A stretch of 64,000 bases of DNA from Candidatus Woesearchaeota archaeon (GTDB lineage Archaea; Nanobdellota; Nanobdellia; Woesearchaeales; UBA11576), in assembly GCA_018675335.1 (NCBI GenBank), contig JABGYH010000007.1:372232-436231 (forward strand). Reading direction: 5' to 3'. The position numbers and the translations under genes were made by a program. A model generated the notes under the pieces. The model made no database searches. It was given only the letters and a program-made list of their open reading frames with translations, and had not been told where the DNA came from. Shown here in pieces: positions 54,183 to 63,758 of this stretch (position 1 is its first letter; every line of letters begins with the position of its first letter).

Positions 54183-54761
54183 TTGAAAATACCCAAAATT
54201 AAAAAAGAAGTGAAAGCATTTTTGTTATCGGATTCGGGAAATGTAACTAAAAATAAAGTGTTAAAAATAGGGTTATTTTCTTCGTTATTAGGTATTGGGG
54301 GCATGAGTAAAGATGCATTTGCTTGTCATTGTAGTATAAATGCTGAATCTTTAACGGATGCGCCTAAAGATGATGATTGGTCTTTGATAAAACCTTATGC
54401 TGAACAAAGTTGTGGGACAAATCCTCCGTCTGCAGATCATAGGCCGTTATTCGAATCCCCATTTACTGATCATGGGAGTGATGGTCATTCTAGTGCTGAT
54501 GATGATAATTGGACTTGTCACGCGAGTACTCATGCAAGCCATCAAGATGGGTGGGAAGGAAATGATGAAGGCCAATTTGATCCCGCTATGGCTGATGCAG
54601 CATATCATAAAAATCATCTGCTAGTTGGTGAAGATTCGGATATAGGTGAATTGCAAATTACTCATCAACATGAAATAACTGACTGTGTTCAAGAATTACA
54701 TGCTAGTTATGATGAACATTGTAGTGATGGCGATTGTAATGATAATCATTGTAATGGTTAA
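54183..54761 (+). CDS. hxsA: HxsA-like His-Xaa-Ser precursor peptide (RiPP-type)
   Basis: The start is TTG behind GGTGAT, giving 192 residues. Residues 1-47 form a leader: a basic helix with VKAFLLSDSGNVTKNK, then the hydrophobic KIGLFSSLLGIGG and a signal-peptidase-like AFA before Cys48. The rest is Asp/His/Cys/Ser-rich and holds seven His-Xaa-Ser motifs, at residues 49, 97, 102, 113, 117, 173 and 179. Nine cysteines are also present. His-Xaa-Ser repeats define the HxsA substrates of the Hxs radical SAM system, and HxsB-, HxsC- and HxsD-like genes lie within 6 kb. The product is probably a modified secreted peptide; no chemistry is proven. Confidence 0.75.
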   Translation: MKIPKIKKEVKAFLLSDSGNVTKNKVLKIGLFSSLLGIGGMSKDAFACHCSINAESLTDAPKDDDWSLIKPYAEQSCGTNPPSADHRPLFESPFTDHGSDGHSSADDDNWTCHASTHASHQDGWEGNDEGQFDPAMADAAYHKNHLLVGEDSDIGELQITHQHEITDCVQELHASYDEHCSDGDCNDNHCNG

Positions 54762-54812: not shown

Positions 54813-55885
54813 ATGGGTAATTTAATGAATTTGGAAACTATTAAAAAAATTTGGAAATATAAATTAACTAAAAATTTTATTAATGGTGATGAAAATTTTA
54901 ATTTATATATAGATAGTCCTTTTTGTATTGCACCTATTTGCAAATATTGCATATATAAACCAACAATTATTTCTGATAAATCAATTTTAAAATTAAAAAA
55001 TAAATATTATTCGGAAATATTGTTAAATAATATTAAAAGTTTTTCTGATATTATTTCTATAAGATTGCCCGATGCAATATATTTTGGAGGGGAACCAGTT
55101 CTTTGATGACTGTTAAACAAATGCAAACAATTTTTGATGAGTTAAATAAATATTTTAATTTTAAGTTAGTTAAACACAAACATTTTGAATTTAATCCGTT
55201 AAGTGCAACAGATGAAAAAATAGATTTTTTGTTAAAAAATAATTTTACTCATTTTACTTTTGGTGTTCAATCTTTAAATTCTGATGTTTTGAATTATAAT
55301 GATCGCATTAATATTAATTTAAAACAATTAAAAAATATTTGTATTAAATTAGAAAAACACTGAGTTAAATATAATTTAGATTTACTTGCATTTATTTTTA
55401 AGGATAATTTTAAACAAGATTTAAATATTTTAAAAGCGGATTTGGCTCTTCTTAAACAAGAAATAAATCCTATGCGAATTACTATTTTTCCTAATTATAA
55501 TAAGTTCAGAAATAATTATGCTATAACTTCAGAGTATGTTAAAATAATTAAACAGTTTCGAAAATTTATTTTAGCGTTTGCAGATCAAAATAGTTATGTT
55601 AATATCCATCAATGTACAACTATGCTGGAAAATAAAGAAATTGCTAAAAGTTTACTTAAAAATCCTATATTGGTTAGATCGGATCTGGCTAATGAACCTT
55701 GGGAGCAATATACTAGTACTTCCCCCTCTAATTCAAAATCCGAAAATAAAAGTGTTTTAGCATTTGGAGGTTGGAATAATAGGAAACCGTATTCTTATAT
55801 AACTGATAAATTCGAATACCGTACTATTAATTCAATTAAGGGTACTGAGTATGAATTAATTTGTGCAGATATAAACTATTATTAA
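54813..55885 (+). pseudogene. Broken HemN/HemW-like radical SAM gene
   Basis: The first piece (54813-55106) carries a radical SAM cysteine motif, PFCIAPICKYC, with four rather than three residues between the first two cysteines. Its reading frame runs out in GGEPVL. One extra G in the G-run near 55088-55091 would restore the expected FGGGTSSL and continue into 55103-55363, whose HFTFGVQSLN is a HemN-type motif. An in-frame TGA at 55361-55363 interrupts that piece, and the same frame then runs on to 55885. So one frameshift and one stop inactivate the gene. The intact homologue would be a HemW-like radical SAM protein. Confidence 0.75.
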
Positions 55886-56793
55886 TCGGTTATTGGTTTA
55901 AATTCAGAATTTCCGAATTTTTCAGGATATTCTTTCCACACACCTTCGCAAATATTATTATGTTTACATAAATTACATTGTTTAAATTTGGCTTTAATTT
56001 TTTTTCTAACTATTTCCCAATTTTTGGTATTTCCATCTAATTGTTTTAATTCTGAATTTTTTTTATTAACAAATCTTAATTCCGAAATGAGTTCTTCAAA
56101 TCCTTTCATAAAACAAAAGGGAAATGTTTCAAAATTAACTTTAATATTATTATCTTTGCAAAATTGCGCAGTTTCATGAACATATAATTCTATTTCAGAA
56201 TATTTTGGTACTACAAGATCAAAATTTTTTCTTGCATTACCTTCTGCGTGAGGAAATGCGAAATTAATATTATTAACATTTAAATTTTTAAATAATTGTG
56301 CAATATTTTTTAAATCTTTAAAATTTATTTTAGAAATTACAACTTTTCCTGTAATAGTTTTATCAATTTTTTTTAAATTTTTTATTCCTTCAATTGTTTG
56401 TTTAAATGAATTATTAACTCTGACAATTTTATCATGAATTTGCGCAGTTGATCCATGAATTGCAATTACAAAATGAATATTATATTTTTTAAAATTTTGA
56501 CAAAAATCTTGATAAAAGAACATTCTGCCATTTGTTTGAATTCCAATGCGAAAACCCATATTTGTTGCAGCAGTTAATAAATCAAATAAATCTTTTCTTA
56601 AAGTTGGCTCCCCCCCTGTAAAAACAACTTGATCACACCCATTTTTTTTAGATTCAATGAGTTCATTAATATATTCTTGAGTGCTTCTATCTTGATTTCC
56701 TCTGAAGATTAATGCTTTTTGTCTTTGATCTGCAATAACGCAATGGATGCAATTATTATTGCACGTATATCCTAATTTAATATCTGTTTTCAT
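55882..56793 (-). CDS. hxsC: HxsC-like radical SAM maturase
   Basis: The 303-residue protein has the radical SAM cluster motif CNNNCIHC (Cys 11, 15 and 18), a TGGEPTLRKDL motif, an IAIHGSTAQIHD strand, and a C-terminal auxiliary cysteine set (CNLCKHNNIC) near 280. HxsC enzymes are the shorter radical SAM partner in Hxs systems, about this length. The gene is three bases downstream of the HxsB-like gene and ends the operon, and it overlaps the 3' end of the broken radical SAM gene by a few bases. The HxsC assignment rests on context as well as sequence; another short radical SAM enzyme is possible. Confidence 0.65.
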   Translation of the reverse strand: MKTDIKLGYTCNNNCIHCVIADQRQKALIFRGNQDRSTQEYINELIESKKNGCDQVVFTGGEPTLRKDLFDLLTAATNMGFRIGIQTNGRMFFYQDFCQNFKKYNIHFVIAIHGSTAQIHDKIVRVNNSFKQTIEGIKNLKKIDKTITGKVVISKINFKDLKNIAQLFKNLNVNNINFAFPHAEGNARKNFDLVVPKYSEIELYVHETAQFCKDNNIKVNFETFPFCFMKGFEELISELRFVNKKNSELKQLDGNTKNWEIVRKKIKAKFKQCNLCKHNNICEGVWKEYPEKFGNSEFKPITD

Positions 56794-56796
56794 TTT

Positions 56797-58203
56797 TTAT
56801 TTATATTTAAGCCAGTTTAATAAAATTTTTCTAGATTCGGGTTCGAATAATAATTTATTAAAAACATAATCGAACTGAAACATAAATAATTTACATTTTG
56901 AATTTGATGAGAGTTTCGGAATCATATTTCCTTCTTCTGCATAGTTCATAACTGGACAAAGCCCGCAATATGGTTTGTAAACACAATTATCGCATAAAAA
57001 TGAACTGTTAATGGATAATGAGATTAGTTGTTGAGTTTTTTTTTGATTTATTATCTCTTTATAATTATTATCAAAAACATTTCCTAGTTTAAATAAATCA
57101 AAATTTCTTCCTTCATCACAGGAAAAAATGTTTCCTTTGTGATCATAAGCAATTTGACCGATAGCTAAACCGCAAGGGCTTCTAAAATCTAAAAAAGAAG
57201 GATCTGTTTTTGTAAGAATTTTTTTTAAAATTAAAACAACATATCTTTCTCTGACAAAAATTCCTCTTTTGTTGAGGGATATTATGTATTCTACACTTTT
57301 TTCCCAAAAATCAATAAATTCCTCAATTGAATATCCGTCATTATTCCATTTTTCTTGTGCGAATCCTAGTTTATTCAGATATTTTATTTGAATATCTTTA
57401 AACCCTTTGTCAACGTATTCATCGATGATTTCTTTATGTTTTGATAGGCTGTTTCTTGTTGTAACCATTAAAGCTGCAATGCGTTTGCCTTTAGATCTTA
57501 CATCTTTAATTTTGTTTGTTACTGCAGTATAAGTTCCACTTTTGTCCTCATATATTCTGTTGTGATCGTGGATTTCTTGAGGGCCATCAAGACTAGTACA
57601 CATATCTATATTTTGTTCTTGAATCCAGTCTAATTGGTCCTCGGTTAAACAAGTTAAATTTGTTACTAATGCAAATCTTATTTTTTTATTGAATTTTAGG
57701 TTCATTTTTTTTGCTTCAGTAACAATAAATTGAAATGTCCCCCAATTAAGTAATGGTTCACCGCCTTGAAACTCAATAGTTATTGTATTTGAAGGAGTTT
57801 GAAAAATGAATTCAAGAGTTTTTTTGGCAGTTTTTAAATCCATATCAAATTCTTTTTTGTCGCAATCTTTTGCAGCAGAGTGACAATAAATACATTTATG
57901 GTTGCATCTTAGTGTCGTAACTATAATATGCAGTGAAGCACCCTTAAATAAAAATTCAAATCGTTTTGCATAATCAATTAAAATTTGATTAATATTATTT
58001 TTAGTAATTATTATTCCCTTTTTAGTTAAATCTTCGAATAGTTTTGGATCTAATTCTTTACGCATTAATTTATCAAATTTTTTTTTACCTAAAACTATCC
58101 AAGATCCCGATTCATTAACTATTAAAAATCTATCTTTAATTTTTTTGTACCTGAAGGGATTATATTCAAAATCGGTTATTATTTCTTTTTTTTTATTTTC
58201 CAT
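56797..58203 (-). CDS. hxsB: HxsB-like radical SAM/SPASM maturase
   Basis: The 468-residue protein fits the HxsB family closely: an N-terminal peptide-binding-like region with YNPFRYKKIKDRFLIVNESG, then LRCNHKCIYC (Cys 100, 104, 107), EFQGGEPLLNW, TSLDGPQEIHDHN, and a C-terminal SPASM set (CDNCVYKPYCGLCPV, about 412-426). SPASM enzymes carry extra iron-sulfur clusters and usually cross-link or oxidise ribosomal peptides. The length matches HxsB. It lies within a minus-strand operon between two other radical SAM genes. Confidence 0.82.
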   Translation of the reverse strand: MENKKKEIITDFEYNPFRYKKIKDRFLIVNESGSWIVLGKKKFDKLMRKELDPKLFEDLTKKGIIITKNNINQILIDYAKRFEFLFKGASLHIIVTTLRCNHKCIYCHSAAKDCDKKEFDMDLKTAKKTLEFIFQTPSNTITIEFQGGEPLLNWGTFQFIVTEAKKMNLKFNKKIRFALVTNLTCLTEDQLDWIQEQNIDMCTSLDGPQEIHDHNRIYEDKSGTYTAVTNKIKDVRSKGKRIAALMVTTRNSLSKHKEIIDEYVDKGFKDIQIKYLNKLGFAQEKWNNDGYSIEEFIDFWEKSVEYIISLNKRGIFVRERYVVLILKKILTKTDPSFLDFRSPCGLAIGQIAYDHKGNIFSCDEGRNFDLFKLGNVFDNNYKEIINQKKTQQLISLSINSSFLCDNCVYKPYCGLCPVMNYAEEGNMIPKLSSNSKCKLFMFQFDYVFNKLLFEPESRKILLNWLKYK

Positions 58204-58224: not shown

Positions 58225-59142
58225 TTAACTGGGTAATTGGTTATGAATATGTGCTGCACAAGGTTTACATGATCCTCTTTTCTTCAAAGTACATGATGTG
58301 CATTTTTTCATCATTATATGATCTAATTTTTTAATTATGTTATTTCTTATTTCTTGAATGTCATTTAAACTATTTTTTTTTAAATTGCCAATTTTTTGAT
58401 CTAAAAAAGGACATATGTGTACATCTAAATTTGGGAATACAAACAATCCATTATTGCATTTTTCAAAAATAAAATTATTTTTTAGTAATTTATTTTTTTG
58501 TGCGATTGTAAACATGCAAATTGGCGAAAAACAATGTTGTTTTATTTGAATTTGTTGTTTTATACATTCTTCAATTATGACTTTAATTTTGTATTTGTTT
58601 TTATCATTTATTTCTGATATGTATTCATTATTTTTTTTTTGTGTTGGAAGTGAAATGACTGGCATGACTATGTTTGGTTTGATATTTTGAATATGTTTAA
58701 TTATTTCTTGTTCATCTGTTTGATCGTGAATGACTGCAGTAAGTGCAATTTCTGCATTTTTTTCTTTTAATAATTTAATATTGTTAAATATTATATTAAA
58801 TTCTTTTTCGTTATGAGCACAATGGAAATTGAATTTAAAATTTTTCATGTTTGAGTATTTTTCAAAAAGCCTTTGATGAAATAAACCGTTAGTTGTAATT
58901 AGTATTTCAAAATCTTCTTTAAAATTGAGTATGTAATCAATAATTTGTTTTAATTCAGGATGGTTTGTGGGTTCACCCCCCAGAAGATTAATTCTATTAA
59001 ATTTATTTGCAATAAAGTTATCAAAATAAAATTTAAACTCATTGAAATTTATGTGCTGATTGTTTTTAAGAACATGTTTTGCTAAACAATAATTGCAGCC
59101 TCTATTGCATTCTTTGCTGATAAATATTTGATTTAAAGACAT
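58225..59142 (-). CDS. Third radical SAM enzyme of the Hxs cluster
   Basis: The 305-residue protein has the cluster motif ECNRGCNYC (Cys 12, 16 and 19), LLGGEPTNHPELKQI and ITTNG, plus a C-terminal cysteine set (CTSCTLKKRGSCKPC) that could hold an auxiliary cluster. It is shorter than HxsB and not closely like it or HxsC. Its start shares one base with the stop of the small gene before it (TAATG). It may carry out a second modification or be an alternative HxsC. I cannot assign a subfamily. Confidence 0.8.
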   Translation of the reverse strand: MSLNQIFISKECNRGCNYCLAKHVLKNNQHINFNEFKFYFDNFIANKFNRINLLGGEPTNHPELKQIIDYILNFKEDFEILITTNGLFHQRLFEKYSNMKNFKFNFHCAHNEKEFNIIFNNIKLLKEKNAEIALTAVIHDQTDEQEIIKHIQNIKPNIVMPVISLPTQKKNNEYISEINDKNKYKIKVIIEECIKQQIQIKQHCFSPICMFTIAQKNKLLKNNFIFEKCNNGLFVFPNLDVHICPFLDQKIGNLKKNSLNDIQEIRNNIIKKLDHIMMKKCTSCTLKKRGSCKPCAAHIHNQLPS

Positions 59143-59346: not shown

Positions 59347-59760
59347 TTATTCTTTGTAATCTTCTGCATCCCAAGGCTTCATAATTTTTTCAGTATCGCT
59401 AACAGTATTTTTTGGCTGTTTGATGGTGGTTTGGGGTTCTGCATTATTTGTGAGTAAAACTCTTTGCAAGATTGTTTCTCTAATTTGTTTGTTTCTTTCA
59501 TTTTGAATTTTATAAACTGAATAATTAAGCAGCTCTTCATTAAAATCTTGAACTAATAAATTTAAATCTTGATTGGGTTTTTTTTTTCGAATTTCAATCA
59601 AGATTTCTTGAGTTGGATCTCCATCTAAAATAATGAAAGCCTTATCAATCATAATATATGCTGCGCTATATACTATATCTATGGGATAAATTTTTGGATT
59701 CAAAGAAAATGTTGCATTATCTGATTCTATAGTTATATTTCCTAATTTGTTAGATATCAT
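59347..59760 (-). CDS. hxsD: HxsD-like protein
   Basis: The 137-residue protein matches the HxsD layout: LNPKIYPIDIVYSAAYIMID in the first third, and the ELLNYSVYKI segment (about 76-85) that corresponds to the 'LLNDYxLRE' signature that I recall for this family. The last 30 residues form a Pro/Thr/Asp tail. HxsD co-occurs with HxsB and HxsC; its role is not established, and a precursor-binding or chaperone role is likely. It lies 54 bases after the prepilin peptidase gene. Confidence 0.7.
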   Translation of the reverse strand: MISNKLGNITIESDNATFSLNPKIYPIDIVYSAAYIMIDKAFIILDGDPTQEILIEIRKKKPNQDLNLLVQDFNEELLNYSVYKIQNERNKQIRETILQRVLLTNNAEPQTTIKQPKNTVSDTEKIMKPWDAEDYKE

Positions 59761-59814: not shown

Positions 59815-60879
59815 TTATGCGAATATTTGAATTAATGCAGTAATTATGTTACCTTTAAAAATAATTGTTAATAAACAACCTGCGAATATGAATGGTGCGA
59901 AAGGTATTGTTTCTTGTATATTTAAATGACTGAAATGTAATTTTCTAGAATTGTGTGCTGTTTGAATAAATTTTATGTCTTTTTTTGTTAAGCCAGTTGT
60001 TCGTCTTTCTATTGCAATAGTATCCTTGTTTAATTCTAAAAATTTTTGGTTTTTTTCAAAAATGGCAAAACCCTTTTTTGTTATGAGTTCTAAGGGGATC
60101 ATTCCTTCTTTAAGATTTGATATTTTAATTTTATATGAATAAAAATCAGTCGAATTAATAATTAACACTTTAATAAGTAAAAAACCCGTTAAAAAACTTA
60201 AGAAATTAAACCAAAATTCAAATCTGGTAAAATGTTCTGGACTAATAAATAATCTGATGATTGCAATGAAAATTAATACATAAATTGTTTGCTCTTCAAA
60301 TATTTTATTGAATAAATATGAAATTAAAAAAAGACCCATCATTATATATAAATAATTTGAATTTATTCCTACATAATTGAGGATTGATTTGGAAATCCAA
60401 GTTAGGCTGAATACCGTTAAAATTATTCTGAGAACATATCTATGATTAGTAAATCGTTTTAAAATTTTTCGTTTATGAGCAAAATTGGTTTTTAAGATTA
60501 GTTTAACAGTTAAATAAATAAATAATGGGATGAATGCGTTTATGATTAATTCTAAAATTGGCAAATCTATGCTGATAAATTTGTAATGTGTTAAAGGGAT
60601 TAGTGAAAAAAATGCAAGATATAATTTGGCATCTCCTGCACCCCAAAAAGAAAAATGCCAGCCTATGAACCCTAATAGTGTGGCACCCACAATATTAATT
60701 AGAAAAAAAATTATATAATCTAATTGAATTAGGTTTAGAATAAATAATGTTGAATTAATTAAAATGCTACAAATTAATGCAATTATGACATATTTATTTT
60801 TAATTTTTCTTTTAGTTATATCTTGATAACTAGTAACAAGTCCTAAAATTATTATTATAGGTAAAAAATAAATAATCAT
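59815..60879 (-). CDS. Type IV prepilin peptidase (A24 family) with C-terminal extension
   Basis: The 354-residue protein is mostly membrane helices. Two catalytic Asp motifs of A24 peptidases are present: SYQDITKRKIKN (Asp near residue 21) and FWGAGDAKLY (Asp near residue 82). The core is about 200 residues; the rest adds another cluster of helices and a soluble segment not typical of short archaeal FlaK or PibD. The enzyme cuts short basic leaders from pilin-like proteins at the membrane. It starts nine bases after the fused radical SAM gene and so lies inside the Hxs operon, which is unusual. Confidence 0.85.
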   Translation of the reverse strand: MIIYFLPIIIILGLVTSYQDITKRKIKNKYVIIALICSILINSTLFILNLIQLDYIIFFLINIVGATLLGFIGWHFSFWGAGDAKLYLAFFSLIPLTHYKFISIDLPILELIINAFIPLFIYLTVKLILKTNFAHKRKILKRFTNHRYVLRIILTVFSLTWISKSILNYVGINSNYLYIMMGLFLISYLFNKIFEEQTIYVLIFIAIIRLFISPEHFTRFEFWFNFLSFLTGFLLIKVLIINSTDFYSYKIKISNLKEGMIPLELITKKGFAIFEKNQKFLELNKDTIAIERRTTGLTKKDIKFIQTAHNSRKLHFSHLNIQETIPFAPFIFAGCLLTIIFKGNIITALIQIFA

Positions 60880-60888
60880 GTGAATCTC

Positions 60889-62874
60889 CTAACTGTGCTC
60901 TTTTATTTCTGAAATTATATTTTGTAGTTTATTTTGGATTTCATTTATTTGATTTGAATTGGGTTGATTTGTAAGATTTTCTATAATTAAAAACTTTGGA
61001 GTTCCAACACCCATAAATTCAAATATTTTTTGTAAATAATTTTTTTGTAAATCAAATTCATTAAATGGGGGTTTAGAATAAATTCCCCCTCTTGTTAAAA
61101 TACATATTATTGTTTTATTTTCTAATAATCCTTTTATTGTGGGTTTTAATTGAAATGTTTTATTTTCAATTAAGATTAAATCAAAAAATGCTTTGAGAAT
61201 TGAAGGTATTGAAAAAGACCACATTGGGGTGGATAATATTAACATATCGCAGTTAACTAGCTCTTTAATGTAATAATCTGATAAATAGTTTAAATTTGTT
61301 TTTTTATTATTTGAATTTGTTAAATGTTTTATGTAGTCTTCATTTATGAACTCTATTTTTTCAGAACATAAATTAATTATTTTTGTGTTAGATTTTTTTT
61401 TACACGAAATTTGATTTATTAATTCTTTTGCTATATTTTTTGAGTTTGAATTTTTTTTCGGACTAGTATTAATCCATAATATGTTATTAGCGATATTATT
61501 TTGGTTTTTTGTTAATAATTTAGTTTCAATTTTAATTAATGAATTAATTGAATCTTCTGGGCAATCTAAACATAGTTTAATGAATTTAGAACTTTTTTTG
61601 ATTTCTTCTAAAAAAAGTTGTTTGTTGTGGTCAGTTAATAATGATAAATTATTTTTTGCTTGATCTAAATTTTTGGATGATAAAAATTTAAAAAGATTTT
61701 GGTATTCTTGCACGTTTTCATCAGATATTAATGGCCATAGTTGTCCTTGTAGTTCAGAATAACTTTTGTGTTTGATTAAACTATTATAATTAAAATAGTC
61801 CTGAGTTCCTGGAAATAAAAAAACAGGAAATGGGCAGGGAATTCCTCCAAAATAAATTATGCTCAGGAATGTCCTAAATATTGATTTAATTTCATCATCT
61901 GGGTGGCCAATAATGAATGTGCATTCACAGTCTTTGATGTGAAATCCTTCTTGTTTAAGAAGATGTGTCATTTTTATTGATGATATGATTGTATACGGTT
62001 TGTTATATTTAGTGATTGTTTTAGAACTTGCGGTTTCAAAAGGTAAACTGGCAGTTGTAACTCCTGCAGTTATCATTTTTTTAACAAGTGACTCATGAAT
62101 AAGATTTGGTTGAAAACCCATTTCAAATTTAAGTTGAGATGTCATTCCTGATTTAATATACATATCAAGAAATTTTTCTAAATGATCTGGAAATAAAAGT
62201 ACGTTTGAATCCCAATTCCAAAAAGCTTTGGGGTTATATTTGACATAAAATTCTTTCATATAATTAATTACAAATTCAATTGGGATTTTTTTTAGTTTAT
62301 CCATTGCAGAGATGCAAAATGAACATTTATTTGGGCAACCAACTTCAAGTTGAAATAATCCATAACTCCATTTGTTTTGGATTTGAAAATCTGGTTTGAA
62401 AAGTTCGACTCCCTTTATTCTTTTTTTAAAACAAATAACTCCTAACTTAGATTCTAGGTTGGGAGTAACTCTTGCCATGGTTCCGCCCAATTTTATTATA
62501 GATCTAGGAAAAATGAATTTGCAGGTTTGAATCATGGAGTTAACAACGTCAAAATCACAAGAAAATGAACAACTAATCCAAATTTCATCAGGTATTTTTT
62601 TAATATTTTTTAGTTCATATTCTAGAAATTTTTTATTTTTTCCTAAAATGTGTGTTTGTATTTTTTGTTTTCCATTTAACCCTAGGGGCTTAATTTTCCA
62701 TAAGTGTTTATCATTTGATCGCATATTAATAAAAAAAACGTTATTTTGTTTATTTTTTAAAAATGATATTAACTGTAAAATGCCTATTGCTATTTGGTTT
62801 GGGCAAAGATAGTTTTCAATACAAGTATAAGGCGTATTCAAAATAACAATATTTTTATTTGAAGGAATAATCAT
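60889..62874 (-). CDS. Radical SAM protein (B12-binding-like N terminus) fused to a flavodoxin-like reductase
   Basis: The 661-residue protein has an N-terminal Rossmann-like region (about 1-165), as in B12-dependent radical SAM enzymes but without a visible DxHxxG motif. The radical SAM domain follows, with CPNKCSFC (Cys 180, 184 and 187) and FIIGHPDDEI. The last 190 residues (about 468-655) look like an NADPH-quinone-reductase/flavodoxin fold: LWINTSPKKNSNSKNIAKEL, LSTPMWSFSIPSILKAFFDL and LTRGGIY. Flavodoxins supply electrons to radical SAM clusters, so the fusion may carry its own donor. It heads the operon. Confidence 0.75.
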   Translation of the reverse strand: MIIPSNKNIVILNTPYTCIENYLCPNQIAIGILQLISFLKNKQNNVFFINMRSNDKHLWKIKPLGLNGKQKIQTHILGKNKKFLEYELKNIKKIPDEIWISCSFSCDFDVVNSMIQTCKFIFPRSIIKLGGTMARVTPNLESKLGVICFKKRIKGVELFKPDFQIQNKWSYGLFQLEVGCPNKCSFCISAMDKLKKIPIEFVINYMKEFYVKYNPKAFWNWDSNVLLFPDHLEKFLDMYIKSGMTSQLKFEMGFQPNLIHESLVKKMITAGVTTASLPFETASSKTITKYNKPYTIISSIKMTHLLKQEGFHIKDCECTFIIGHPDDEIKSIFRTFLSIIYFGGIPCPFPVFLFPGTQDYFNYNSLIKHKSYSELQGQLWPLISDENVQEYQNLFKFLSSKNLDQAKNNLSLLTDHNKQLFLEEIKKSSKFIKLCLDCPEDSINSLIKIETKLLTKNQNNIANNILWINTSPKKNSNSKNIAKELINQISCKKKSNTKIINLCSEKIEFINEDYIKHLTNSNNKKTNLNYLSDYYIKELVNCDMLILSTPMWSFSIPSILKAFFDLILIENKTFQLKPTIKGLLENKTIICILTRGGIYSKPPFNEFDLQKNYLQKIFEFMGVGTPKFLIIENLTNQPNSNQINEIQNKLQNIISEIKEHS

Positions 62875-62933
62875 CTGTTTTGTAGGAATGTTGGAATTTA
62901 TAAAACTTTCATTTGTATTTAATAAGGTTTATT
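62875..62933. promoter_or_regulatory. 59-bp divergent promoter between the operon and the prenyltransferase
   Basis: One short region must start the minus-strand radical SAM operon and the plus-strand prenyltransferase. A TATA-like TTTATAAAAC lies at 62897-62906 and may serve the prenyltransferase; AAGG lies just before its ATG. The compact divergence suggests shared control. Confidence 0.55.
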
Positions 62934-63758
62934 ATGGCTGAAGAAATAAAATTTAAAAATGTACTCGAAAAGTTTAATTTTCATTTGGATATGAATTCAA
63001 TTAAAAAAGATGATTTGTTAAATTTATTTGAAGATTTTTTAGTTCAAAATAAATTAAATAGTTTAGAATGTTCTATAAAATATGCTCATGATAATGTATT
63101 TTCAAAAAGATTTAATATTTGGTTTAAAGGAAAAAATCATTTTCAATCTATTTCTAATACTATAAAATTTTTTAACCAAGTTGAAAATAAATTTAATTTA
63201 AAATTAAATTATGACCTGCTTAAAAATTTTTTTGGAAAAGAATTCGATCTTGATTTGTTTGATCAGGTGATTATGGGAGTTGATTTTAGAGAAGACTTGA
63301 GTAAATCTCGTCTTAAATTATGGGTTTTGACTTTAAATTATGGTGTGATGAAAAAATTAATTCAGTTTTATGGGATAAATTATAATCTTGCGTCTTTACC
63401 TATATCCAATCAAGTATTATTGGGATTTGATTTTGGATTTGACGGATCATTAAATAATAAAATTTATTTTACCTATTTTCAAGAATTATTAAATCAAGAT
63501 CATACTAAACAAGTTTTTAAAAATTTATTTTCTAAAGAATTTATTGAGGTGGTTAATTATTGTGATCTAATTCACATTTCTTTGAGTGGGGGAAATGGTA
63601 AATATATTTTTCATTTTGCACCTTGCCAAATTAATTTTTTTAAAGAAAAATTTAGTTCTAGTGTCGGTTATGATTGGAATTTTCCATTAAAAGTTTTTTC
63701 TACTTCCTCGACTGAATTTAATTCAATGCAAATTAGAAATTATAATATTTATTATTAA
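62934..63758 (+). CDS. LynF/TruF/PatF-like peptide prenyltransferase
   Basis: The ATG at 62934 (after AAGG) gives 274 residues; a TTG earlier is unlikely. The protein follows the pattern of the cyanobactin prenyltransferase family: NTIKFFNQVENKFNLKLNYD, then FGKEFDLDLFDQVIMGVDFR, the LGFDFGFDGSLNNKIYF segment, and a C-terminal end of IRNYNIYY. Family members have an ABBA-type fold and transfer dimethylallyl groups to Ser, Thr or Tyr of peptides, though some, such as PatF, are inactive. Finding it divergent from an Hxs operon suggests the modified peptide is also prenylated. Confidence 0.75.
   Translation: MAEEIKFKNVLEKFNFHLDMNSIKKDDLLNLFEDFLVQNKLNSLECSIKYAHDNVFSKRFNIWFKGKNHFQSISNTIKFFNQVENKFNLKLNYDLLKNFFGKEFDLDLFDQVIMGVDFREDLSKSRLKLWVLTLNYGVMKKLIQFYGINYNLASLPISNQVLLGFDFGFDGSLNNKIYFTYFQELLNQDHTKQVFKNLFSKEFIEVVNYCDLIHISLSGGNGKYIFHFAPCQINFFKEKFSSSVGYDWNFPLKVFSTSSTEFNSMQIRNYNIYY

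Follow-up and report, generated by a model that had tools for sequence, protein, structure and literature searches.

A radical SAM protein with a C-terminal azoreductase-type flavin domain in a predicted His-Xaa-Ser peptide-modification cluster of a Woesearchaeota archaeon

Introduction

The bacterial His-Xaa-Ser (HXS) systems, such as the one on plasmid 4 of Aeromonas salmonicida, comprise HxsA, HxsB, HxsC, and HxsD. The woesearchaeal locus described in this work is similar to those systems in that its HxsB and HxsD exceed the NCBIfam cut-offs and it also has HxsC- and HxsA-like genes. However, the woesearchaeal HxsC- and HxsA-like genes are below their family cut-offs. Neither an A24 peptidase nor fused tailoring enzymes are listed beside hxsB in the three annotated bacterial loci (Aeromonas, Methylobacter, and Mesorhizobium) that were compared, where the plasmid gene tables are incomplete.

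The eukaryotic tRNA 4-demethylwyosine synthase TYW1 carries an FMN-binding flavodoxin-fold domain on its radical SAM chain (PMC9186531). The woesearchaeal protein resembles TYW1 because a flavodoxin-fold domain and a radical SAM domain are on one chain. However, the flavodoxin-like domain of TYW1 is N-terminal and its substrate is tRNA, whereas the woesearchaeal fusion has an azoreductase-family domain at the C terminus of a predicted B12-class enzyme that is encoded in a predicted peptide cluster. In the C3 deoxygenation of apramycin, the radical SAM dehydratase AprD4 is coupled to the NADPH-dependent reductase AprD3 (PMC5461906). Among solved structures, AprD4 matches the radical SAM half of the fusion best, but AprD4 and AprD3 are two separate proteins that act on an aminoglycoside. 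The RiPP radical SAM maturase PapB is driven by NADPH and free FMN alone, which support its full turnover (PMC10470005).

The cobalamin-dependent radical SAM enzymes MgmA, TsrM, TokK, OxsB, and CysS exhibit the same Rossmann and radical SAM fold as the fusion. They differ from it in that the C-terminal flavin domain is found only in the fusion, where cobalamin is putative. The FMN-dependent NADH azoreductases (AzoR) share their fold and FMN loops with the flavin domain, but they are stand-alone enzymes. No description of this cluster or this fusion was found in the open-access literature on HXS systems, archaeal and woesearchaeal radical SAM peptides, and azoreductase fusions.

Organisation of the fusion gene

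The window, which is the whole stretch of 64,000 nucleotides analysed in this work, was taken from a draft assembly of nine contigs. The fusion gene is located at 60889..62874 on the reverse strand, as are all of its parts, and it consists of a single 661-aa frame that has no internal stops. The radical SAM half covers residues ~4-437. It starts with a cobalamin-type Rossmann domain (62380..62865, residues ~4-165) that has the motifs PDEIWIS (residues 95-101) and LGG (residues 129-131), followed by the radical SAM domain (61876..62340, residues 179-333). A linker (61486..61563, residues 438-463) connects this half to the azoreductase/quinone-reductase domain of flavodoxin fold (60922..61485, residues 464-651). 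The first-pass annotation had described a radical SAM protein fused to a flavodoxin-like domain, and that description is borne out by the single frame, in which both Pfam domains exceed their cut-offs.

In-frame ATG, GTG, or TTG codons are found at residue 388 and next only at residue 544. The reductase domain starts near residue 464 and is not a separate gene because there is no start between those two residues. Two separate genes with their own starts were ruled out since the linker does not have a start codon, and no second gene start was seen in the linker DNA. An assembly artefact that joined two genes would be consistent with the exact fusion being found in one genome only. This explanation is very improbable, since the long frame is open throughout and its linker is free of start codons, the contig is 564 kb in length, and two sister proteins are fused at the same point. 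The genes on either side of the fusion gene are of the same cluster type.

Radical SAM half

The Pfam Radical_SAM family (PF04055) matches residues 179-333 with 36 bits, where the curated cut-off is 29.5. The three [4Fe-4S] cysteines (C180, C184, and C187; 62314..62337) are conserved without exception in 39 aligned sequences. They form CX3CX2C, the cluster motif of class 1 cobalamin-dependent radical SAM enzymes. The Pfam B12-binding match is below cut-off in the fusion (E 0.33), and the sisters from L031, L052, and L032 have B12-binding matches of 31-39 bits.

The full-length model used 38 homologues spanning the N-terminal half, and it is confident for residues ~1-360 (blocks of 65-97 and one of 50). 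Structural comparison with VIA-align gave AprD4 as the best match (Z 25.8, rmsd 3.5, 374 residues), followed by MgmA (Z 23.8, rmsd 2.8, 328 residues) and TsrM (Z 22.9, rmsd 3.3, 367 residues). CysS, MiaB, and OxsB were also matched, and the fold match extends over residues ~4-437. Judging from the model, this half is predicted to have the architecture of B12-class radical SAM enzymes, including the N-terminal Rossmann domain. The B12-type N-terminus claimed earlier thus agrees with the fold matches to MgmA, TsrM, OxsB, and AprD4. The Z score to AprD4 is near those to the cobalamin enzymes, so these scores choose no chemistry. Since AprD4 has the same architecture, a reaction other than methylation is possible for the fusion.

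None of the 27 B12-type radical SAM ORFs inspected in HXS clusters, the fusion among them, has the motif DxHxxG. OxsB, TsrM, and TokK bind cobalamin without a His ligand, and the missing motif is therefore uninformative on methyl transfer. The first-pass annotation was right that the motif is lacking, but it had used this absence as a ground for doubting methyl transfer, and for that purpose the absence carries no information. NrdJ was not found in the host genome (G000), which has four other PF02310 matches, each beside radical SAM matches.

Flavin domain

The Flavodoxin_2 family (PF02525) matches residues 464-651 with 113.7 bits (cut-off 27, E 1e-32), which is far beyond chance, and the domain also matches the Pfam family FMN_red. 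The curated AzoR family profile NF010075 is matched below its cut-off (69.4 bits against 188). The best PDB matches of the domain sequence are FMN-dependent NADH-azoreductases. A scan of viral contigs gave no homologues of the flavin domain, so residues 456-661 were modelled alone without an alignment, and the model is of low confidence (mean pLDDT 55). The order of strands and helices in the model is that of the flavodoxin fold. A Foldseek comparison (E 9e-8) gave FMN azoreductases and NQO1/NQO2 as the closest experimental structures, and this low-confidence model superposes on AzoR with Z 13.9 and rmsd 3.7 over 175 residues. The structure prediction is thus in line with the flavodoxin fold that had been proposed for the reductase region.

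Three segments of the domain are probable FMN loops. The alignment with FMN azoreductases places SPKKNSNS (61441..61464, residues 471-478) at the probable FMN phosphate loop and TRGGIYS (61075..61095, residues 594-600) at a probable FMN-contact loop. TPMWSFS (61210..61230, residues 549-555) is another probable FMN-contact loop, which reads PMWNFS in azoreductases. The retained SPKKNSNS, PMWSFS, and RGG are presumably the loops that touch FMN in the AzoR family, and the domain probably binds FMN on the basis of these motifs. The nearest structures, the PDB matches, and the FMN loops together assign the domain to the azoreductase/quinone-reductase family and not to the electron-carrier flavodoxins. 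The label of a flavodoxin/quinone-reductase-like domain holds for this reductase of flavodoxin fold. Azoreductase-family enzymes are two-electron hydride-transfer reductases.

Predicted HXS cluster around the fusion gene

The neighbouring genes place the fusion gene in a predicted woesearchaeal HXS peptide-modification cluster. An A24 prepilin-type peptidase (59815..60879, reverse strand; PF01478, 31.3 bits) has the catalytic-aspartate motifs SYQD and GAGD. HxsD (59347..59760, reverse strand) is just over its cut-off (TIGR03976, 50.2 bits against 50), and the radical SAM maturase HxsB (56797..58203, reverse strand) is well above its own (TIGR03978, 462 bits against 370). A radical SAM protein similar to MoaA/NirJ2 (58225..59142, reverse strand) matches SPASM weakly, with 19.2 bits against a cut-off of 21.5, and a relative of this protein was found in another HXS locus (L048). 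The radical SAM gene at 55882..56793 on the reverse strand is similar to HxsC4, with 147 bits to NF038332 (cut-off 500) and 105 bits to TIGR03977 (cut-off 268). With these scores it is classified as HxsC-like and not as HxsC proper.

The HxsA-like precursor is located at 54183..54761 on the forward strand. It consists of a leader (AFLLSDSGNVTKNKVLKIG), a hydrophobic stretch, and a core rich in His, Cys, and Ser, and it has seven HxS motifs. The family NF038309 (HxsA3) matches its residues 3-51 with 30 bits, where the cut-off is 65. The same leader is common to about 30 precursor-like ORFs near HxsB elsewhere, with the common form FLxxEDG-KISKExLLKxG followed by a hydrophobic stretch. Beside the precursor, a HemN-like radical SAM gene (window positions 54813-55885, forward strand) is split into three short frames. 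One TGA lies within its PF04055 match, and two pieces match the HemN/HemZ families.

A peptide prenyltransferase similar to LynF/TruF/PatF is located at 62913..63758 on the forward strand. It exceeds the cut-off of PF19156 (95.5 bits) and has 109 bits to TIGR04445, where the cut-off is 140. A relative of this prenyltransferase forms the C-terminal part of a 1005-aa protein in a genome of the same genus (L034:5713-8730), which also has MiaB-like and HxsC-like radical SAM domains.

The cluster probably builds a chemically modified small peptide. The first-pass annotation had read the domains of the fusion correctly, but it did not mention the HXS cluster and its probable substrate.

HXS loci across the order

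Of 352 genomes from the order, 59 have HxsB, and all 14 control genomes lack it. HxsD is within 3 kb of HxsB in 55 of the 59 loci, an A24 peptidase is within 5 kb in 46, and an HxsA-like ORF was found in 33. These counts are lower bounds as several contigs end early. A tally of the Pfam families in 81 other ORFs close to HxsB was mixed and of little help.

Both A24 catalytic aspartates are kept in nearly all A24 proteins of the HXS loci, in the forms (S/T/N)AGD and SYxD. The GxGD pattern is missing in most of these proteins, but the alignment with both aspartates speaks against their being inactive. The leader of the HXS precursors resembles a prepilin-type (class III) signal in sequence. This resemblance would fit cleavage by the A24 peptidase, which is probably the leader peptidase of the HXS cluster. 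Another protein that adjoins HxsD-HxsB (L038:11195-13858) combines an A24-type peptidase with a PMT_2 mannosyltransferase-like domain.

Sister proteins and their C-terminal domains

The radical SAM half has four sisters that are 23-28% identical to it, from four genomes (G158, G177, G032, and G058) of the same order. All four are located in or beside HXS genes. Relatives outside Woesearchaeota are much weaker (E 3e-16 against 4e-36). The sister in L032 (1237 aa) has a C-terminal GT1 domain and a methyltransferase, and the sister in L033 (743 aa) has a C-terminal methyltransferase. The C-termini of the sisters in L031 and L052 have no Pfam match.

The radical SAM proteins scanned in other HXS loci, which were picked for their length and are not a random sample, exhibit fusions to GT2/GT28, GT9 (twice), GT1, an APH-type kinase (twice), and BpsA_C, and also to diphthamide-synthase-like, DUF364, and DUF362 plus Fer4 domains. 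A PatF-type prenyltransferase is fused with two radical SAM domains in an HXS locus. Since many radical SAM proteins in HXS loci are fused, the addition of a second activity is a habit of these clusters. The BpsA_C fusion (L052:11845-13701) joins a radical SAM domain to the C-terminal domain of branched-chain polyamine synthase, an aminopropyltransferase, and this domain assignment suggests aminopropylation of the peptide. The radical SAM protein of L068:6187-8886 is joined to DUF362 and to a ferredoxin-type 4Fe-4S domain, which makes it another candidate for an electron supply on the same chain.

The azoreductase fusion was seen in one genome only among those searched. It was not found elsewhere among 98 relatives, 371 genomes of the phylum, and the contig scans of other genomes. 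A search of 55 genomes, nearly all of them HXS-bearing, with PF02525 found no other member inside an HXS locus. A class-wide search of 378 evenly drawn genomes with a profile of the radical SAM subfamily gave no new member. The search for the same fusion in other genomes, as had been proposed, therefore returned no second azoreductase fusion, but it did return sisters with other domains at the same position.

Proposed function of the fusion

The fusion is very probably a peptide-tailoring enzyme of the HXS cluster in one way or another. This is supported by HxsB and HxsD above cut-off nearby, together with the A24 peptidase, the precursor, the radical SAM genes, and the prenyltransferase-like gene.

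The reading that we tentatively favour for the flavin domain, by analogy with the sisters, is a second tailoring activity in a bifunctional HXS RiPP enzyme. It is favoured because two sisters carry other enzymes at the same C-terminal position. AprD4, whose structure is closest to the model of the radical SAM half, also supports it, as its partner AprD3 is an NADPH-dependent reductase. The enzyme would recognise the HxsA-like precursor by its conserved leader and work on it alongside HxsB/HxsD. The radical SAM half would then introduce a change that depends on the 5'-deoxyadenosyl radical, and perhaps on methylcobalamin, in the core rich in His, Ser, and Cys. With FMN that has been reduced by NAD(P)H, the azoreductase-type domain would next reduce the product of this step or a neighbouring modified residue by two-electron (hydride) transfer. 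The radical step would thus be followed by a reduction, as in the AprD4/AprD3 pair. Finally, the A24 peptidase would cut off the leader and the peptide would be exported. Several observations count against this reading: the azoreductase fusion was found in one genome only, the Z scores to AprD4 and to the cobalamin enzymes are close to each other, TYW1 is a clear example of a radical SAM chain with a flavodoxin-like domain, and the DUF362 plus Fer4 fusion indicates that HXS clusters may also fuse electron-transfer modules.

It is possible, though somewhat less likely, that the flavin domain is instead a built-in power supply. It would take hydride from NAD(P)H and deliver single electrons (or FMNH2) to the [4Fe-4S] cluster, as well as to any bound cob(II)alamin, and no separate flavodoxin would be needed. 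The FMN-binding domain of TYW1 (PMC9186531) and the turnover of PapB with NADPH and free FMN (PMC10470005) are precedents for such a supply, and the FMN motifs of the domain are intact. However, the domain belongs to the azoreductase/NQO family and not to the electron-carrier flavodoxins. The host genome has 22 other Radical_SAM matches but just a single further Flavodoxin_2 match, in a frame of 197 aa, so its remaining radical SAM proteins function without a fused domain of this kind. A fused flavin domain is also missing from the sister enzymes, two of which have tailoring domains at the same position. The electron supply proposed in the first-pass annotation is thus possible in view of its precedents, but it is weakened by the family of the domain and by the sisters.

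It is unlikely that the flavin domain reduces or protects something else (a quinone, a cofactor of the modified peptide rich in His and Cys, or oxidised thiols) and is brought close to it by the fusion, or that it is a structural relic. PDB titles show that the family accepts a wide range of quinone and azo substrates, and this range and the Cys-rich precursor core are consistent with another substrate, but the FMN-contact motifs have been kept despite the divergent sequence, which argues against a relic.

Conclusions

Where radical SAM enzymes obtain their electrons in the cell is for the most part undecided. An enzyme with its own supply would allow SAM cleavage driven by NAD(P)H to be tested directly. 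Should the flavin domain instead tailor the peptide, the fusion would be a radical-plus-reduction pair on one chain. We hold it as a tentative conclusion, somewhat short of an even chance, that a single archaeal polypeptide, a B12-class radical SAM enzyme with its own flavin reductase, uses NAD(P)H for a radical reaction on a peptide made by the ribosome. It would be either self-powered or carry out a radical step and then reduce the same residue by hydride transfer, and it would belong to a large family of woesearchaeal HXS peptides whose radical SAM enzymes exchange fused tailoring domains. The occurrence of HxsB in about a sixth of the genomes of the order opens a set of Woesearchaeota peptide pathways with many fused enzymes.
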